Below are positions 49,794 to 57,276 of a DNA stretch of 64,000 bases, piece after piece. Under the pieces are notes generated by a model, which did not search any database, had not been told where the DNA came from, and worked only from the letters and a program-made list of their open reading frames with translations. The translations under genes were made by a program, and so were the position numbers. Location: positions 434,001-498,000 of the forward strand of contig CANJLL010000001.1 in the NCBI GenBank assembly GCA_947475545.1, written 5' to 3'. This DNA is from Chloroflexota bacterium. Its GTDB lineage: Bacteria > Chloroflexota > Limnocylindria > Limnocylindrales > CSP1-4. Numbering within the stretch: position 1 is the first letter of the stretch; the number at the start of each line of letters is the position of its first letter.

Positions 49794-50537
49794 TCAGCCT
49801 GCGCTGTCGACCGCCGCCAGCGCGGCCGCCACGTCGAGGTGGCCCTCGTATAGCGCACGGCCGACGATCGCGCCGGCGCATCCGATCGCCTTCGCCTGGC
49901 GCAGGTCGTCCAGTGTCGTCACACCGCCCGACGCGATGACCGCGCCGGCATCAAGGCGCAGCAGGCGGCCCAGCAGGTCGAAGTCCGGGCCGGCCAGAAG
50001 ACCGTCACGGTCGATGGCAGTCGCCGCGAACCAGCGTGCGCCCGCGACCGACAGGCCCAGGAGCGCGTCCTCGGCGCGGACGCCTGCCGCACCGGGCCGC
50101 CATCCCTCCCCCAGCGCGAGGCCGTCCCGCACGTCCAGGGCGACCACGATGGCATCCACGCCGTGCGTCTCGATGAGGGCGGCCACGAACGCCGGATCGC
50201 GCAGCGCGGCCGTCCCGACCACGACGCGGCCCGCGCCCGCCAGCAGTGCCCGTTGCACCGCACGCTCCGTCCGCAGGCCGCCGGCGACCTCACAGCGCAC
50301 CCGACCACCCAGCGCGCCGACGATCCGGGCGACCACGTCGGTCTGGACCGGCTCCCCCTCCCGGGCACCGTCCAAATCCACGATGTGGATCCAGCGGGCA
50401 CCCGCGGCGGCGAACTCCTCCGCCACCTCGACCGGGTCACGGTCATACACGGTCTCGCGACCGAAGTCACCCTGGCGGAGCCGCACCACGCGGCCGCCAC
50501 GCAGATCGATGGCCGGCAGCAGATCGAAGCTTGTCAT
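49794..50537 (-). CDS. hisA: Phosphoribosylformimino-5-aminoimidazole carboxamide ribotide isomerase
   Basis: The fourth step of histidine synthesis, a 247-residue (beta-alpha)8 barrel. LLPAIDLRGGRVVRLRQGD carries the catalytic aspartate of strand 1, and ATAIDRDGLLAGPD the second aspartate; phosphate loops are AGGLR and SGGV. I use the ATG at 50537; a TTG three codons upstream is possible. It is transcribed away from the other his genes, sharing the intergenic region with yerC. Confidence 0.94.
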   Translation of the reverse strand: MTSFDLLPAIDLRGGRVVRLRQGDFGRETVYDRDPVEVAEEFAAAGARWIHIVDLDGAREGEPVQTDVVARIVGALGGRVRCEVAGGLRTERAVQRALLAGAGRVVVGTAALRDPAFVAALIETHGVDAIVVALDVRDGLALGEGWRPGAAGVRAEDALLGLSVAGARWFAATAIDRDGLLAGPDFDLLGRLLRLDAGAVIASGGVTTLDDLRQAKAIGCAGAIVGRALYEGHLDVAAALAAVDSAG

Positions 50538-50552
50538 GCGTCCCAACTGTGG

Positions 50553-50578
50553 TATCGTTTTAACACGCTACTACGATA
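50553..50578. promoter_or_regulatory. Divergent hisA/yerC promoter region with inverted repeat
   Basis: An AT-rich patch holds TATCGT-N14-ACGATA (50553-50558, 50573-50578). TACGAT (50572-50577) could be a plus-strand -10 for the his operon, leaving a leader of about 70 bases. The symmetry and location make it a candidate operator for the TrpR-like YerC protein encoded next to it. Confidence 0.45.
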
Positions 50579-50653
50579 GCATGGTGACACGGCGGGTGCC
50601 GCACCCCCGGCGACGGGCCGGTGGCAACCGCCCGGCCCAGCGAGGACATGATG

Positions 50654-50980
50654 ATGGCCACGGACGAGACTTGGCGGACCGACGAGATCATGGAGCTGTT
50701 CGGGGCAATCCTGCGCCTTCAGGACCCGGTCGAGGCCGAAGCCTTCCTGCGCGACCTGTGCACCCTGGGCGAGCTGCGCGACATGGCCCAGCGCTGGGCC
50801 GTGGTCCGGATGCTGGACCAGGGGCTCCACTACGCCGAGATCTCGCATCGCACGGGCGCCAGCACGGCCACCATCACCAGGATCGCGTCCTGGCTCCACC
50901 ACGGCCAGGGCGGCTACCGCCTGATGCTGGAACGGTCCCCCCGACCCACGACCACCGACTTCGCCGGAGACCCCTCATGA
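50654..50980 (+). CDS. YerC/YecD-family TrpR-related DNA-binding protein
   Basis: A 108-residue helix-turn-helix protein of the Trp-repressor superfamily. WRTDEIMELFGAILRLQD, then FLRDLCTLGELRDMAQRW and MLDQGLHYAEISHRTGASTATITRIASWL follow the YerC pattern, with the last segment the HTH. Three consecutive ATG codons (50648, 50651, 50654) are possible starts; GAGG is eight bases from the last. It overlaps hisG (ATGA), so it is first in the his operon and probably regulates it. The ligand is unknown; histidine or a pathway intermediate is a guess. Confidence 0.87.
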   Translation: MATDETWRTDEIMELFGAILRLQDPVEAEAFLRDLCTLGELRDMAQRWAVVRMLDQGLHYAEISHRTGASTATITRIASWLHHGQGGYRLMLERSPRPTTTDFAGDPS

Positions 50981-51837
50981 CCGAACGCATGCGCCTGGCT
51001 GTTCCCAACAAGGGGCGCCTCGTCGAACCCACCCTCGCGCTGCTGCGCGACGCCGGGTTGGTGTTCGACGCGCACGACCGGAGCCTGGTCTCCCGGGTCC
51101 AGAACGTGGACCTGGACATCCTCTTCGTGCGGACCAACGACATCGCGGAGTTCGTCGGCGACGGCGTGGCGGATGTTGGCATCACGGGCGGCGATCTCCT
51201 GGCCGAGGCGGGTGCGCAGCTGCCCATCGTCCGCGAGCTGGGCTATGGCCGCTGCCGCCTCGCTGCCGCCGTGCCCAACGACGCCACGTACACCTCCATC
51301 GACGACCTCGGCGGCACGCGCATCGCGACCTCGCACCCCAACACCACGCGACGCTTCTTCGCCGAGCGCGGGATCGCGGTCTCCGTGGTGGCGCTCTCGG
51401 GCGCCGTCGAGGTGGCGCCCCGCCTTGGCCTGGCCGAGGCGATCGTCGACCTGGTCTCGACCGGCTCCACCCTGGTGATGAACGGGCTGCGTCCCATCGG
51501 CGACGTCCTGGCATCCCAGGCCGTCATGGTCGCGAACCCGGCGGCGCTCATGAACCGGGCCGCCGAGATTGCCACGATCGATACGATGATCGGCGCCGCC
51601 CAGGCCGCCCGTGGCAAGAAGTACCTGATGCTCAATGCTCCGATCGCCAAGGCACAGGCCATCGAGGATCTGCTGCCCTCCCTCGAATCACCCACGGTGA
51701 TCCCGCTCGCCCACGACGGGATGATCGCGATCCACTCCGTGGTGGGCGCCGACGAGGTGTGGGGGCTGCTGCCGCGGCTGAAGGCGGCCGGCGCCAGCGG
51801 CATTCTCGTGCTGCCCATCGAGAAGATCGTGCCGTGA
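50977..51837 (+). CDS. hisG: ATP phosphoribosyltransferase, long form
   Basis: First and committed step of histidine synthesis. At 286 residues it is the long HisG with the C-terminal ACT-like regulatory domain, so no HisZ is needed and direct feedback by histidine is expected. LAVPNKGRLVEPT, DVGITGGDLL, IATSHPNTTRRFF and the PRPP loop VDLVSTGSTLVMNGL are present. Overlaps yerC and hisD by four bases each. Confidence 0.95.
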   Translation: MTERMRLAVPNKGRLVEPTLALLRDAGLVFDAHDRSLVSRVQNVDLDILFVRTNDIAEFVGDGVADVGITGGDLLAEAGAQLPIVRELGYGRCRLAAAVPNDATYTSIDDLGGTRIATSHPNTTRRFFAERGIAVSVVALSGAVEVAPRLGLAEAIVDLVSTGSTLVMNGLRPIGDVLASQAVMVANPAALMNRAAEIATIDTMIGAAQAARGKKYLMLNAPIAKAQAIEDLLPSLESPTVIPLAHDGMIAIHSVVGADEVWGLLPRLKAAGASGILVLPIEKIVP

Positions 51838-53255
51838 ACGTGGCCGGCAGCAACGCCCCCCGATCCGATCCGGTCACGGCGATGCCCATGCGCCTGCGGC
51901 GTCTCGACCTGGCCGCGGCCGAGCACGATCCAGCGGTCGCCGCCGAGCGTGACGCGCTCCTCCGCCGGGGCGCTGTCCCGGACGCCCGCGTCCGCGATGC
52001 CGTGCGCGCCATCCTGGCTGACATTCGCTCCAACCCGGACAGCGCGGTCGCCGCGGCGAGCGCCCGCTTCGGCGGCGGCCTCGCCGACGGACGACTGGTG
52101 CTCGGTCCCGCCGAGATGGCCGCCGCCCGGGACGCCCTCTCCCCGGAGATCCGCGCCGCCCTGGAGCAGTCCATCGCCAACGTCCGCCGGTTCGCCGAGA
52201 CGCAGCGGCCCGCCACCACCGTGACGGAGGTCATGCCCGGCATCCAGATCGAGCGCCGCTGGCTGCCGCTGGATCGCGTGGGGGTCTACGTCCCGGGTGG
52301 GACGGCGCCGTACCCGTCGTCGCTCGTCATGGGCGTCGTGCCCGCGCGGGTCGCCGGCGTCGCACACGTGACTGTCGCCTCCCCGGCCGGCAAGGACGGG
52401 TCCGTCAACCCCGTGCTGCTCGGCGCGGCCGGGCTGCTGGGCGTCGACGCGTTCGTGGTTGCCGGCGGGGCCCAGGGCATCGGCGCGCTGGCCTACGGCC
52501 TCCCGGGTGCCGGGCTCCTGCCTGTCGATCGCATCGTGGGCCCCGGCAATGCCTGGGTGACCGCGGCCAAGATCGAGCTGGTGGGCGAGGTGGGCATCGA
52601 CCTTCCGGCCGGCCCGTCGGAGGGCATGGTCCTGGCAGACGCGGGCGCCGACCCCGTCCAGGTGGCGGCCGACCTGATCACCCAGGCGGAACACGGCCCA
52701 GACTCCCCTGCCCTCCTGGTCACCAACGACGCCGCCCTGGCCGATGCCGTGGAGGCCGAGATCAACCGCCAGCTGGCAGGCGCACTTCGCCGCGCCATCC
52801 TGGACCAGGCGCTGGCGACCCATGGCCGGATCGTGCTGGTTCCCACCCTCCAGGCCGGGATCGATTTCGTCAACGCGTACGGCCCGGAGCACCTGTCGGT
52901 GGAGGTCGGCCGGCTCGAGGAGACCGTCGCGCTCCTGCGCAACGCCGGCTCCATCTTCGTCGGCCCATGGGCGCCGGAATCGGCGGGTGACTACGCGACT
53001 GGCGCCAACCACGTCCTGCCCACCGGCGGCCTCGCCCGGTCGTGCGGGCCGCTCGCCGTTGAGGCCTTCGGCAAGTACAGCCAGGTCCAGCGCATCACCC
53101 GGGACGGTCTGGCCTCCATCCGTCGGACGGTTGGGGTGCTGGCGACCGCCGAGGGCCTGGAGGCACACCGGGCTGCCATCGAGGTCCGCTTCCGGGCGGA
53201 CCCGGTCCACTCTGCCGCCGGCGCGGCCACGCCCAGTCAGGAGGCCGACCGATGA
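51834..53255 (+). CDS. hisD: Histidinol dehydrogenase
   Basis: Oxidises histidinol to histidine with two NAD. YVPGGTAPYPSSLVMGVVPA, VGPGNAWVTAAK, DLPAGPSEGMVLAD and QAEHGPDSPALLVT are conserved landmarks including zinc ligands and the GPSE catalytic loop; GPEHLS and TGANHVLPTGG follow. The 473 residues slightly exceed the norm because of a 25-residue N-terminal extension. GTG start at 51834 within the hisG stop (GTGA); its own stop overlaps hisC (ATGA). Confidence 0.96.
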   Translation: MNVAGSNAPRSDPVTAMPMRLRRLDLAAAEHDPAVAAERDALLRRGAVPDARVRDAVRAILADIRSNPDSAVAAASARFGGGLADGRLVLGPAEMAAARDALSPEIRAALEQSIANVRRFAETQRPATTVTEVMPGIQIERRWLPLDRVGVYVPGGTAPYPSSLVMGVVPARVAGVAHVTVASPAGKDGSVNPVLLGAAGLLGVDAFVVAGGAQGIGALAYGLPGAGLLPVDRIVGPGNAWVTAAKIELVGEVGIDLPAGPSEGMVLADAGADPVQVAADLITQAEHGPDSPALLVTNDAALADAVEAEINRQLAGALRRAILDQALATHGRIVLVPTLQAGIDFVNAYGPEHLSVEVGRLEETVALLRNAGSIFVGPWAPESAGDYATGANHVLPTGGLARSCGPLAVEAFGKYSQVQRITRDGLASIRRTVGVLATAEGLEAHRAAIEVRFRADPVHSAAGAATPSQEADR

Positions 53256-54427
53256 GCCCAACTCCGGTGACGTTCGCCTCGCCGACGGCACCATCCACCT
53301 ACGCCTGGGAGGCCACCAACGAGGAGGTCGCCCGGCGCTACGGCCTGCGCGTGGACGAGATCGTCCGGTTTGACCTCAACACCTCGCCGCTCCCGCCCGA
53401 GATGGTCGGGCGGATCCTGGCCGCAGGGACGTTCGAGACGCCGCTCTCGGAGTACCCGCCGTCCGACTACGCGCGCCTGGTCGCCGCGGCGGCCGCCCGC
53501 TACGGCGTGGCCACCGACGAGCTGCTGGTTGGCGCGGGCGCCGACGAGATCCTTGACCTGGTGGGCAAGACGTTCCTGGCACCGGGCCAGGCCGCGGTCG
53601 TCCTGCCGCCCACCTACTCGATGTATCGGGTGATCACGGAGCAGCGCGGGGCGACCGTGATCGACGTCGCCCGCCGACCTGCCAGCGATGGATGGATCCT
53701 CGACACCGACGCCGTGCGCCAGGCCGCCCGCTCGGCGGCCGTCGTCTGGCTGTGCAGCCCCAACAACCCCACCGGGCTCGCGGAGCCCGCCGGCGTCCTG
53801 GCGTCGCTCCTGGCCGACATCGCGGCCGACGCCGATGGCGACGGCCGGTGGCGGCCCATCGTCGTGATCGACGAGGCGTATGCCGAGTTCGTGGACTGGT
53901 CCGCGCTGGGCCTGCGGTCCGCCTACCCCGACCTGATCGTCGTGCGCACCATGAGCAAGGCCTACGGGCTGGCCGGGATCCGCGTCGGGTTTGCCGTGGC
54001 CCACCCCGCGATCATCGCCCGGATGGCGCCGTACCGGCCGCCGGGCTCGGTCTCCACCGTCTCCGTCACGGTCGCAACCGAGGTGCTCGGCAGCGACGGG
54101 GTGGCCCGCGACAACATCGCCAGGGTGGTCGCGGAGCGACCGCGGCTGGTCACCGCACTCAGGGCGGCCGGCCTGGCGGCCCACGAGTCGGTGACCAACT
54201 TCGTCCTGGTCGGACTGGGCTCGGCGGAATGGGCAGGCCAGGTCGCTGATGGCCTCATGCGCCGGGGCCTGGTCCCGCGCACCTTCGGCCAGGGCCACCC
54301 GCTGGCCGCCTACCTCCGGCTCACCGTTCGCGGTCGCGCGGAGAACAACCGCCTGATCACCGCCATCACCGAGATCATCAGCGCGGCGGCCCCGGCCGCC
54401 GACCCCGAAGGAGAGGCAGCCCCATGA
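53252..54427 (+). CDS. hisC: Histidinol-phosphate aminotransferase
   Basis: A fold-type I PLP transaminase of 391 residues, acting on imidazole-acetol phosphate. SPNNPTG (phosphate/aldehyde region), VIDEAYAEF (pyridine aspartate), TMSKAYGLAGIRVG (Schiff-base lysine) and the arginine in LRLTVR are in place. Located in the his operon, overlapping hisD and hisB, which settles the function among the aminotransferases. Residues 178-190 hold a short acidic insertion. Confidence 0.94.
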   Translation: MSPTPVTFASPTAPSTYAWEATNEEVARRYGLRVDEIVRFDLNTSPLPPEMVGRILAAGTFETPLSEYPPSDYARLVAAAAARYGVATDELLVGAGADEILDLVGKTFLAPGQAAVVLPPTYSMYRVITEQRGATVIDVARRPASDGWILDTDAVRQAARSAAVVWLCSPNNPTGLAEPAGVLASLLADIAADADGDGRWRPIVVIDEAYAEFVDWSALGLRSAYPDLIVVRTMSKAYGLAGIRVGFAVAHPAIIARMAPYRPPGSVSTVSVTVATEVLGSDGVARDNIARVVAERPRLVTALRAAGLAAHESVTNFVLVGLGSAEWAGQVADGLMRRGLVPRTFGQGHPLAAYLRLTVRGRAENNRLITAITEIISAAAPAADPEGEAAP

Positions 54428-55050
54428 CCACCCCGCTCGGCCAGCTGGTGATCAGCGAGCGCGGCACGCGCAGCCTGACGGTCACCCGCGAGACGAAGGA
54501 GACCCGGATCACCGTCTCCCTGGACCTCGACGGCAGCGGCCGCACGGACATCCAGACGGGCATCGGCTTCTACGACCACATGCTCACCGCCTTCGGCCAC
54601 CACGGGCTGTTCGACCTCACCATCCGGGCGAAGGGCGACCTGGAGGTGGACGAGCACCACACCGTCGAGGACGTGGCGCTGGTCATGGGTGCTGCCTTCA
54701 ACGAGGCACTGGGCGACCGCGCGGGGATCCGCCGCTACGGCGACGCCGCCGTGGCGATGGACGAGTCCGTGGCGGCGGCGGTCGTCGATGTCGGCGGCCG
54801 CCCGTACTGCGTCGTGGACCTGCCATTCCGTGGAGCACGCGCGGGCGGACTCCCGCTGCAGCTGGTGGACCACGCCCTGGAGGCCTTCGCCCGAACGTCG
54901 GGCACCACGCTCCACCTGCGCGGCACAGGCCGCAACGACCACCACCTGTGCGAAGCCGCCTACAAGGCGCTGGGCCGCGCGCTCCGGGTCGCCTGCGAGC
55001 CCGATCCGCGCCGGACCGGGATCCCGTCGACCAAGGGCTCGCTGGGGTGA
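54424..55050 (+). CDS. hisB: Imidazoleglycerol-phosphate dehydratase
   Basis: A 208-residue monofunctional HisB, Mn-dependent, without the phosphatase domain seen in enterobacteria. GIGFYDHMLTAFGHHG, DEHHTVEDVALVMG and GTGRNDHHLCEAAYKALGR contain the histidine-rich metal sites. It overlaps hisC (ATGA) and hisH (GTGA). A separate histidinol-phosphate phosphatase must be encoded outside the window. Confidence 0.96.
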   Translation: MTTPLGQLVISERGTRSLTVTRETKETRITVSLDLDGSGRTDIQTGIGFYDHMLTAFGHHGLFDLTIRAKGDLEVDEHHTVEDVALVMGAAFNEALGDRAGIRRYGDAAVAMDESVAAAVVDVGGRPYCVVDLPFRGARAGGLPLQLVDHALEAFARTSGTTLHLRGTGRNDHHLCEAAYKALGRALRVACEPDPRRTGIPSTKGSLG

Positions 55051-55742
55051 GCGCCGCCAGCCCGACGATGCCGAGGACCCGCCGGCGGGCAAAGACCGCG
55101 TGGGGCTCGGATCCCGATCGTCTGCGCATCGCCGTCGTGGACTACGGCGCCGGCAACCTCGTCAGCATCGAGCAGGCGCTGACCGCCGTTGGGGCCGACG
55201 TCCGCGTGGCCCGACACCCGGCCGTCCTCGAAGAGGCGCAGGCGCTGGTCGTGCCCGGCGTCGGCGCCGCCGCGCCCGCGATGCGCCGACTGGCGCGCCA
55301 GCAGTTGCTGGCGCCCATTGCGCGCTGGGTCCGCGAGGATCGTCCCTTCCTGGGCATCTGCCTTGGGCTGCAGCTCCTGTTCGAGGTCAGCGACGAGGAC
55401 GGCGCCGCGATGTTCGGCGTCCTGCCGGGCCGCGTGGAGCGCCTGCAGGACGCGCCGACGCTGCCGCACATTGGCTGGAACCAGGTCTCCCGCCGGCGTG
55501 AGCACCCGCTCTTCGACGGCATCCCGGACGGCGCCGACCTGTACTTCGTCCACTCCTTCGCGGGCGTCCCCGGCGGCCCCGGCGCGGCTGACGCCATCCT
55601 CGCCGAGACCACCCATGGGGCGACGTTCGTGTCCGCCGTCGCGAACGGCAACACCCTGGGCGTCCAGTTTCATCCCGAGCGGAGCGGTGCCGACGGGCTC
55701 CGGCTGCTCACCAACTTCGTCCGCTGGGCGGGAGGCCGCTGA
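55047..55742 (+). CDS. hisH: Imidazole glycerol phosphate synthase, glutaminase subunit
   Basis: A class I glutamine amidotransferase of 231 residues that feeds ammonia to His[15 protein letters not shown] begins the core after a 28-residue basic N-terminal extension; the oxyanion strand is [10 protein letters not shown], the nucleophile is the Cys of [10 protein letters not shown], and the His-Glu pair is in [12 protein letters not shown] start inside the hisB stop codon; the stop shares one base with hisF. Confidence 0.95.
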
Positions 55743-56536
55743 TGCTGCGCCGCCGGATCATCCCGTGTCTCGACGTGGCCAACGGCCGCGTGGTCAAGGG
55801 CACCAGGTTCGTTGACCTGGTTGACGAGGGAGACCCGCCCGAGCTGGCGGAGCGGTACGCACTGGAAGGTGCCGACGAGCTGGTCTTCCTGGACATCACG
55901 GCGGCCCCCGAGCGGCGCGGCACCCTCCTCGACATCGTGGAGCGGACCGCCCGACGGGCCTTCATCCCGCTCACCGTGGGCGGCGGCGTCCGGTCCGTGA
56001 CCGACATGCGCCGCGTGCTGCGCGCCGGGGCCGACAAGGTCTCGCTCAACACCGCGGCCGTCGCCGATCCGACGCTCATCACCCGCTGTGCCCGGCGGTT
56101 CGGGCGGCAGGCCGTGGTGGTGGCCATCGACGCGCGGCGGATGACCGAGCCGGCGCCCGACGGGTCCCCGCGCTGGGAGGTCCTCGTCCGCGGCGGACGG
56201 GACCCGGTTGGCCTCGACGCCGTCGCCTGGGCCGCGCGAGTGACGTCCCTCGGCGCGGGCGAGCTGCTCGTCACCTCGATCGATCGCGACGGCACGCAAT
56301 CCGGCTACGACACGGCGCTCCTGCGGGCCATCGCCGACCGCGTGGAAGTGCCCGTCATCGCCTCCGGCGGCGCCGCGGGGCCGGACGACTTCATCGCGGC
56401 CGTCCTGGACGGCGGGGCGGACGCGGTCCTGGCGGCGTCCATCTTCCATCGCCGCATCCATGCCATCGCCGACATCAAGGCCGCGATGGCGGCCGCGGGC
56501 ATCCCCGTCCGCCTCAGCACGGAGGGCGCCGCATGA
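55742..56536 (+). CDS. hisF: Imidazole glycerol phosphate synthase, cyclase subunit
   Basis: A 264-residue (beta-alpha)8 barrel forming the HisHF complex. [15 protein letters not shown] with the first catalytic aspartate, [42 protein letters not shown] with the second aspartate, and [11 protein letters not shown] are characteristic. The TGATG junction to hisH keeps the two subunits together. It overlaps hisIE by four bases. Confidence 0.96.
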
Positions 56537-57276
56537 GCAAGCCGATCGGGAAGCCCGAGGACGACGCCGCCATGATCGGCGACGCCGCTGCCGTCCCGGC
56601 TTCGCCCGGATCCGGGCCGCTGGACCCGGGGGCCGTCCGCTTCGGTGCCGACGGCCTCGTTCCGGTGGTCGTCCAGGACAGCTTCGACGGCCGCGTCCTG
56701 ATGGTGGCGTATGCCGACGCCGAGGCACTGGCCGCGACGCTGGCCACCGGCGAAGTCCACTTCCACTCGCGATCACGGGGCCGGCTCTGGCGCAAGGGCG
56801 AGGAGAGCGGCCACGTCCTCCGACTGGTTGCGCTGGCGGCCGACTGCGACGGCGATGCCCTGCTGGCGACCGTGGTCCCGGTTGGACCCACCTGTCACCG
56901 CAACACCCGGAGCTGCTTCGACGCCGATGGGGCGCCGGCGCAGGCGACCACCCAGGGCTTCGCGTGGCTCGAGGGGCTGTGGGCCACGATCGCCGACCGC
57001 GTCGCAACGCGGCCGGCCGGCTCCTACACCGCCAATCTGTTGGCCGGCGGCGTGGATGCCGTCGCGCGCAAGGTCACCGAGGAGGCCACGGAGGTCCTGC
57101 TGGCCGCCAAGGACGACGCCGTGGCCCAGGCGACCGGCGCCGACCGCGGGCCCGGCCGCGACGCCCTGGCGGGCGAAGCCGGCGACCTGATCTACCACGC
57201 GCTGGTCCTGCTGGCAGAGCGCGGGCTCTCCCCCGCGGACGTGCTGGAGGCGCTGCGCAGGCGCCACAAGGTCTAG
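56533..57276 (+). CDS. hisIE: Bifunctional phosphoribosyl-AMP cyclohydrolase / phosphoribosyl-ATP pyrophosphatase
   Basis: A fused HisI-HisE of 247 residues, steps 2 and 3. After a 35-residue linker, the HisI part has [29 protein letters not shown] and the zinc/metal region DCDGDALL...GPTCH with CF of SCFD; the HisE part (about 150-247) has [14 protein letters not shown] and [13 protein letters not shown]. Last gene of the operon, convergent with tyrS. Confidence 0.95.

Follow-up and report, generated by a model that had tools for sequence, protein, structure and literature searches.

A predicted operator array with an 8-bp period between hisA and the yerC-led histidine operon of Chloroflexota

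Introduction

Can a histidine operon be governed by a regulator that it encodes itself, and through which stretch of DNA would that control act? The question is raised by a 64,000-nucleotide stretch of a Chloroflexota genome (the window), in which a gene for a TrpR-like protein, yerC, stands directly in front of hisG and divergent from hisA. An initial annotation proposed a self-contained circuit, in which this protein controls histidine synthesis from within the operon through a symmetric site, TATCGT-N14-ACGATA, in the promoter region shared with hisA.

HisR control of its own his operon is known in principle from other phyla. According to the main text of a survey of this family (PMC9413887), which named YerC HisR, orthologs occur in 395 Firmicutes and 97 other genomes, and the predicted HisR sites are 20-bp palindromes upstream of his genes; the one species for which binding is described there is R. 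gnavus, whose clostridial HisR binds in vitro in an L-histidine-dependent manner. The same text reports that hisR is the first gene of, and controls, its own his operon in most HisR-bearing Proteobacteria and some Firmicutes lineages. Chloroflexota lie outside its main-text analysis, Chloroflexi being named in the main text only in a reference title.

Results

The his locus of the window is made up of the following genes, with yerC as the first gene of the unit yerC-hisGDCBHF-IE.

49794..50537, minus strand: hisA, divergent from the array described below (best match TIGR00007, 218.4 bits, slightly below the cut-off of 228.95)
50654..50980, plus strand: yerC/hisR, TrpR-family regulator (TIGR02531, PF01371); start alternatively at 50648 or 50651
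50977..51837, plus strand: hisG, long form with C-terminal domain (TIGR00070, TIGR03455, PF08029)
51834..53255, plus strand: hisD (TIGR00069, 446 bits)
53252..54427, plus strand: hisC (best match TIGR01141, 253.5 bits, below the cut-off of 276.55)
54424..55050, plus strand: hisB (13 HisB models match; NF002111 and NF002114 exceed their own cut-offs)
55128..55742, plus strand: hisH (TIGR01855, 205.3 bits; the reading frame is open from 54948, the family match runs from about 55128)
55742..56536, plus strand: hisF (TIGR00735, 338.3 bits)
56533..57276, plus strand: hisIE (NF002747, 221 bits)

The ATG of hisA lies at 50537 on the minus strand, and the gene reads away from the same intergenic region. 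yerC has in-frame start codons at 50648, 50651 and 50654, the last of which, judged by eye, appears to fit GAGGA at 50642 best, and a stop codon at 50978-50980. The overlap of yerC with hisG that the initial annotation described is present, four bases being common to the end of yerC and the hisG ATG (50977-50979). Its wider claim, that yerC is cotranscribed with all the his genes, would fit hisG, D, C, B, H, F and IE, which follow closely spaced on the same strand up to 57276, but not for the divergent hisA. Long-form HisG is known for its own histidine feedback and, because hisG has the C-terminal domain here, the enzyme may carry a separate feedback of this kind.

The YerC protein (109 residues) belongs to the YerC/YecD family TIGR02531 (84.6 bits against a cut-off of 42.2) and, by PF01371 (82.9 bits against 27), has the TrpR superfamily fold with its helix-turn-helix. 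TrpR proper was considered and set aside, the score against the equivalog model TIGR01321 being 21.1 where 67.25 is required. For a structure model of six helices (mean pLDDT 92), the nearest folds are 3g1c, 3frw and 3kor (Z 13.6-13.8; 38-40% identity in the structure alignment), followed by E. coli TrpR chains that include 1TRO and the tandem complex 1TRR. YerC is HisR, a TrpR-family histidine repressor, and stands here at the head of the his genes; the initial interpretation is largely right. The proposal that a Trp-repressor-fold protein would control histidine synthesis from within the operon gains support from the TIGR02531 membership and from the published HisR work (PMC9413887, main text).

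The intergenic region contains these elements.

50531..50536, plus strand: possible -35 (TTGTCA) of a yerC promoter, from a consensus scan; overlaps the hisA start
50553..50592, plus strand: predicted operator array of five 8-bp units of the form TANNAYGN, TATCGTTT TAACACGC TACTACGA TAGCATGG TGACACGG
50553..50558, plus strand: left arm of the inverted repeat, also a possible extended -10 of the yerC-his promoter
50556..50575, plus strand: 20 bp in register with the published HisR sites, with a centre identical to that of the inverted repeat
50573..50578, plus strand: right arm of the inverted repeat, spanning unit 3 into unit 4 of the array

TATCGT-N14-ACGATA lies at 50553-50578, between hisA and yerC as first described, 15 bases from the hisA start and 73 bases upstream of the yerC ATG at 50651. 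It is the sole match at one mismatch or fewer in the 64 kb, where 0.01 would be expected per window, and its extended arms (TGGTATCGT/ACGATAGCA) are complementary at eight of nine positions. The five units of the array match TANNAYGN at 22 of 25 unit positions, a count that none of 2,000 dinucleotide shuffles reached (maximum 18), and 50553-50592 is the top-scoring chain of units anywhere in the window. Within 50537-50653 the best match to the proteobacterial HisR consensus is 50556-50575 (10 of 14 positions, reached by 24 of 2,000 shuffles), so that a palindromic 20-bp site of HisR type does stand upstream of the his genes. Against the Firmicutes HisR consensus the same 20 bp score just 8 of 14 positions; the best match to that consensus in the region has 9 of 14 in a different register and is reached by 112 of 2,000 shuffles. 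Matches of the TrpR consensus in the site region are at chance level.

Scanning genome contigs with YerC yielded 39 loci, mostly from Chloroflexota metagenome-assembled genomes (MAGs), with 46-96% identity to YerC of the window. hisA is divergent and hisG downstream in 38 of them, the exception (L039) coming from a Patescibacteria MAG. A search for the repeat upstream of yerC-hisG in related genomes, the check suggested by the initial annotation, recovers the element in 38 of the 39 loci. With a leave-one-out weight matrix, none of 200 single-base shuffles reaches the score in each of the 38 loci, against 10 of 200 in L039; the loci are related and the counts hence not independent, the best register is off by one unit in L004 and L009, and L028 contains an N. 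Because the computed hisA-yerC gap varies from 35 to 212 bases across the 38 loci, we regard the conserved element as a footprint and not as general similarity.

The weight matrix of the related loci also indicates which part of the 26-bp site matters most: the N14 stretch holds 16.0 bits (57%) and both arms together 11.8 bits. Conservation is among the lowest in the outer left arm, with 0.31-0.45 bits at positions 1-3, and TANCGT at this arm has been lost in many relatives that keep the rest of the element. The symmetric site noticed at the outset is real and conserved; it is the outer part of the longer 8-bp array at 50553-50592, described by its less conserved edges.

When the loci are set in blocks of eight, units starting with TA recur. 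Self-similarity over 38 loci (L001 and L039 left out) peaks at lag 8 (z 22 against shuffles), followed by lags 16 (z 13) and 24 (z 9.7); lags 3, 5, 11 and 19 are raised as well (z 5.5 to 10), as TACTA inside a unit would give, and the remaining lags are at or below chance. Runs of at least three TA steps spaced 8 bp apart are found in 34 of 37 loci from the genome contigs, 27 of 28 further whole-genome loci, that of the window among them, and 10 of 13 from a second Chloroflexota class, and runs of just two in 3, 1 and 3 loci, respectively, the mean run in shuffled sequences being about 1.2. Steps of 6, 7, 9, 10 and 12 are at chance level in all three sets, and step 11 is weakly raised (mean run 2.00, 1.82 and 1.38). 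This count left out L120 and L127 (near-copies of L119 and L124), L039, L095 and identical upstream stretches, and treated L038 apart; its set named f5 (a sister family, described below) includes L064, whose f5-like protein is encoded in a same-family genome (G079).

Three loci of these scans are worth describing on their own. A contig labelled Acidimicrobiaceae (L038:2922-2960) has divergent hisA and yerC-hisG with an 8-bp array, for which transfer and mis-binning are both possible. L042 has an array-like site before yerC-hisC with no hisA beside it. In the Patescibacteria MAG (L039:2920-3267), a YerC-like protein is encoded without his neighbours in the locus, and a perfect 18-bp palindrome, CACTGTAGTACTACAGTG, directly precedes its gene.

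We then compared the distribution of yerC with that of the operator, using a model (R1) built without L028 (because of its N), L038, L039 and L001/L002; its training loci belong in part to the 177 class genomes compared, and its E-values are rough. yerC is present in 95 of the 177 and the operator, at E<=0.1, in 88: both occur in 86, yerC alone in 9, the operator alone in 2 and neither in 80. The best R1 match lies beside yerC in 84 of the 86 (exceptions G031 and G096). The nine genomes with yerC alone comprise one with an array recognized by eye (G020, L089), one with a partial gene match (G069), one with an incomplete f5-like site (G079) and six of f5 with another type of site; in the two with the operator alone, the match lies inside an amidohydrolase gene (G086) or is weak (G025, 0.075).

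Within the window's own family, 16 of the 18 genomes without yerC also lack a match to the window's HisG; in the other two yerC may have been cut off, because the contig of G105 begins at hisG and the G070 locus (L093) stops 47 bases short of it. Since the HisG match is missing too or the contig begins at or within 50 bases of hisG, joint absence in this family says little. A cleaner control is provided by seven genomes of other families that have a hisG match but no yerC, none of which has an operator match; they come from 28 genomes examined, eight with hisG (the eighth is G070), and their hisG matches span about 200 residues at about 40% identity.

In many relatives (G091, G095, G100, G102, G104 and others; G107, G116, G118, G120, G125) yerC and a match to the window's HisG are both missing, five of five 1.1-1.2 Mb genomes tested from a neighbouring family among them; these relatives may be histidine auxotrophs, may have gaps as MAGs or may use another HisG. 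Class relatives without yerC at L128-L134 have a short HisG match (about 40% identity, about 200 residues; three read through a stop codon), possibly a short form of HisG.

In the assembly from which the window comes (90.7% complete), a search of both strands with the operator model gives a single place at E<=5, the core pattern likewise occurs once with one mismatch or fewer (reversed control, 0), and yerC has one match. The possibility that YerC binds elsewhere only was thus checked with the operator model, which offers no second place. Because model and core pattern each find one place, the circuit looks local, confined to the his genes, as far as sequence can tell.

A wider regulon was considered and rejected on the basis of 17 further R1 places in the other genomes examined (L072-L088), among the matches listed, ten of which are inside coding sequence: carB, the large chain of carbamoyl-phosphate synthase (L072, L081, L083, L086, L087; by Pfam), an FAD-dependent oxidoreductase (L082 and L085 by Pfam, L084 by likeness only) and an amidohydrolase (L073, L088; by Pfam). 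The five carB matches, from different genomes, fall in the same domain (in G063, L087, in its equivalent) and were taken as chance arising from coding constraint. L075 and L076 represent the same stretch, which lies at the ends of two contigs close to a protease-like reading frame. By eye, L077, L078 and L079 near position 2001 (genome G062) are hairpin-like repeats resembling units, one of them before a polA-like reading frame, and L080 near 1181 is a perfect palindrome, GTTGTAGCATGCTACAAC, before a reading frame resembling a helix-turn-helix protein with a nucleotidyltransferase.

How does the array relate to HisR sites of other lineages? In sister family f5, all six loci (L044-L046, L048, L052, L055) carry TTTAGC(G/T)TG(C/A)T(A/G)AAG immediately before the yerC start or at it, and this is the single, published type of HisR site beside yerC-hisG; no hisA was found in these loci. 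In the second Chloroflexota class, yerC is present in 14 of 110 genomes, and all 15 loci (two pairs of near-copies included) have a divergent hisA and units resembling TAnCATGn, that is, the array with other bases; over three units they match at 12-15 of 15 positions, reached by none of 500 shuffles each. The recognition helix reads ATITRIASWL in the window's group and mostly ATISRVNQWL in f5; that helix and site differ in parallel is only a hint, because T and S both occur at that place among class-two proteins. With 3 of its 25 inner branches well supported, the YerC tree leaves undecided whether the array is ancestral.

The canonical HisR pattern has no match at two mismatches or fewer in genome G332, the reversed control giving seven in each direction. 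In a relative within the phylum whose sequence is a single 2.9 Mb contig (L095), YerC scores a high 124.8 bits, its locus shows no his gene, and the canonical HisR site was not found in that genome at two mismatches or fewer.

Discussion

The array is very probably the operator of the HisR encoded by yerC, judging from its conservation, placement and register. It shares with the HisR regulon described in the main text of PMC9413887 the regulator family, a site just upstream of his genes, the 20-bp register and the TA-N6-TA core; the regulator leads the his operon, as it does there in most HisR-bearing Proteobacteria, in Peptococcaceae and in most Selenomonadales/Acidaminococcales. It departs from the published site in repeating every 8 bp (its TA runs are mostly 3 to 5 long), in lying where hisA and yerC-hisG diverge, and in having units TAGCAYGC/TACTAYGC where published HisR has TTTA-N6-TAAA. 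E. coli TrpR has the same fold (Z 8.0-9.7, 19-23% identity for nearly all listed chains) and, according to 1TRR and PMC8745587, tandem dimers on DNA, an operator overlapping the promoter and a binding mode that trades affinity against cooperativity, whereas its genes, presumably its ligand, and the bases of its units are different. The published consensuses are themselves self-similar at lag 8 (TrpR 6 of 6 defined pairs, Firmicutes HisR 2 of 2, proteobacterial HisR 1 of 2). Because of this self-similarity, we would take the published HisR site to be a single 8-bp step, of which the Chloroflexota operator has several.

We consider it probable that histidine-loaded HisR dimers sit side by side every 8 bp and repress both the yerC-his and the hisA promoter. 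When histidine is plentiful, histidine-bound dimers would dock along the units, each spanning two TA steps in the manner of TrpR tandem complexes; the bound row would cover the start region of yerC-hisGDCBHF-IE and of hisA, and both units, the HisR gene included, would be repressed. A drop in histidine would release HisR from the array. We infer from the comparisons above that HisR would bind here with histidine as co-repressor, occupy the units in tandem and cooperatively, and act on both sides.

The array could be less than it seems: one conventional 20-bp palindromic HisR site for one dimer, with an apparent 8-bp period made of two half-sites and sequence drift. Published HisR sites have exactly this form (PMC9413887, main text), the f5 family uses it, and the proteobacterial consensus matches one register here. 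But 16 of the 37 loci from the genome contigs have 4 to 6 successive TA steps at 8 bp, conservation extends past the 20-mer, with 1.6 bits at position 26 of the site, and in the second class the bases are others but the period is the same; we think a single site unlikely. Alternatively, the inverted repeat might be promoter sequence only, TATCGT being an extended -10 mirrored for hisA. TTGTCA-16-TATCGT, with TG before the -10, makes a candidate yerC promoter that overlaps the array, and in the six f5 loci TTGAC(A/G)-N17 or N18-TAGC(G/T)T was seen by eye upstream of yerC. A promoter reading sits badly with the low information of the left arm and the loss of TANCGT from elements otherwise kept; a scan of relatives (L002, L028, L039 and L040 left out) found no -35 on the hisA side, and on the yerC side a -35 matching at least 4 of 6 positions at spacers 16-18 in 11 of 36 loci, no single spacer exceeding the shuffle maximum of 6. 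That the repeat is nothing but promoter strikes us as very improbable; it can be promoter and operator at once.

That another regulator uses the array while YerC acts elsewhere we hold to be highly unlikely. It profits from the fact that binding of a Chloroflexota HisR to the array is a step that we infer; against it, operator and yerC co-occur (with R1 partly trained on the same genomes), the register agrees with that of HisR sites, and the one such place in the assembly is beside yerC. Control at the RNA level, by an attenuator or T-box in the 5' leader, would draw on the GC-rich inverted repeats of the yerC leader at 50594-50606 and 50615-50638, yet Rfam, which covers described families including T-box and His leader covariance models, gives no match at E<=1 in 50400-51100, 50400-50800 contains no terminator-like site, and the conserved DNA is AT-rich and lies upstream of the expected start or at it. 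We give this explanation hardly any chance.

The tandem HisR array, then, is the reading we carry forward. The open-access literature that we searched, including the main text of PMC9413887, yielded nothing on Chloroflexota HisR operators or 8-bp HisR arrays. Within that literature we met no account of such an operator array, of its place between divergent genes or of how widely Chloroflexota carry it; the regulator and its logic are known from other phyla. A broader proposal, to which we lend about even credence, is that Chloroflexota HisR works as a cooperative dimer row in which the unit count determines how steeply the two halves of the split histidine pathway respond to histidine, that the single 20-bp site of other phyla is the one-step form of this code, and that the array is an old trait of the phylum, being present in at least two classes.

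These results would extend HisR control to a phylum outside the main-text analysis of the published survey. They describe an operator with countable units, in which lineages differ in the bases but share the 8-bp step, and so may offer a natural series for how TrpR-fold proteins read DNA and cooperate, as well as a case in which one protein would serve two divergent promoters of one pathway.
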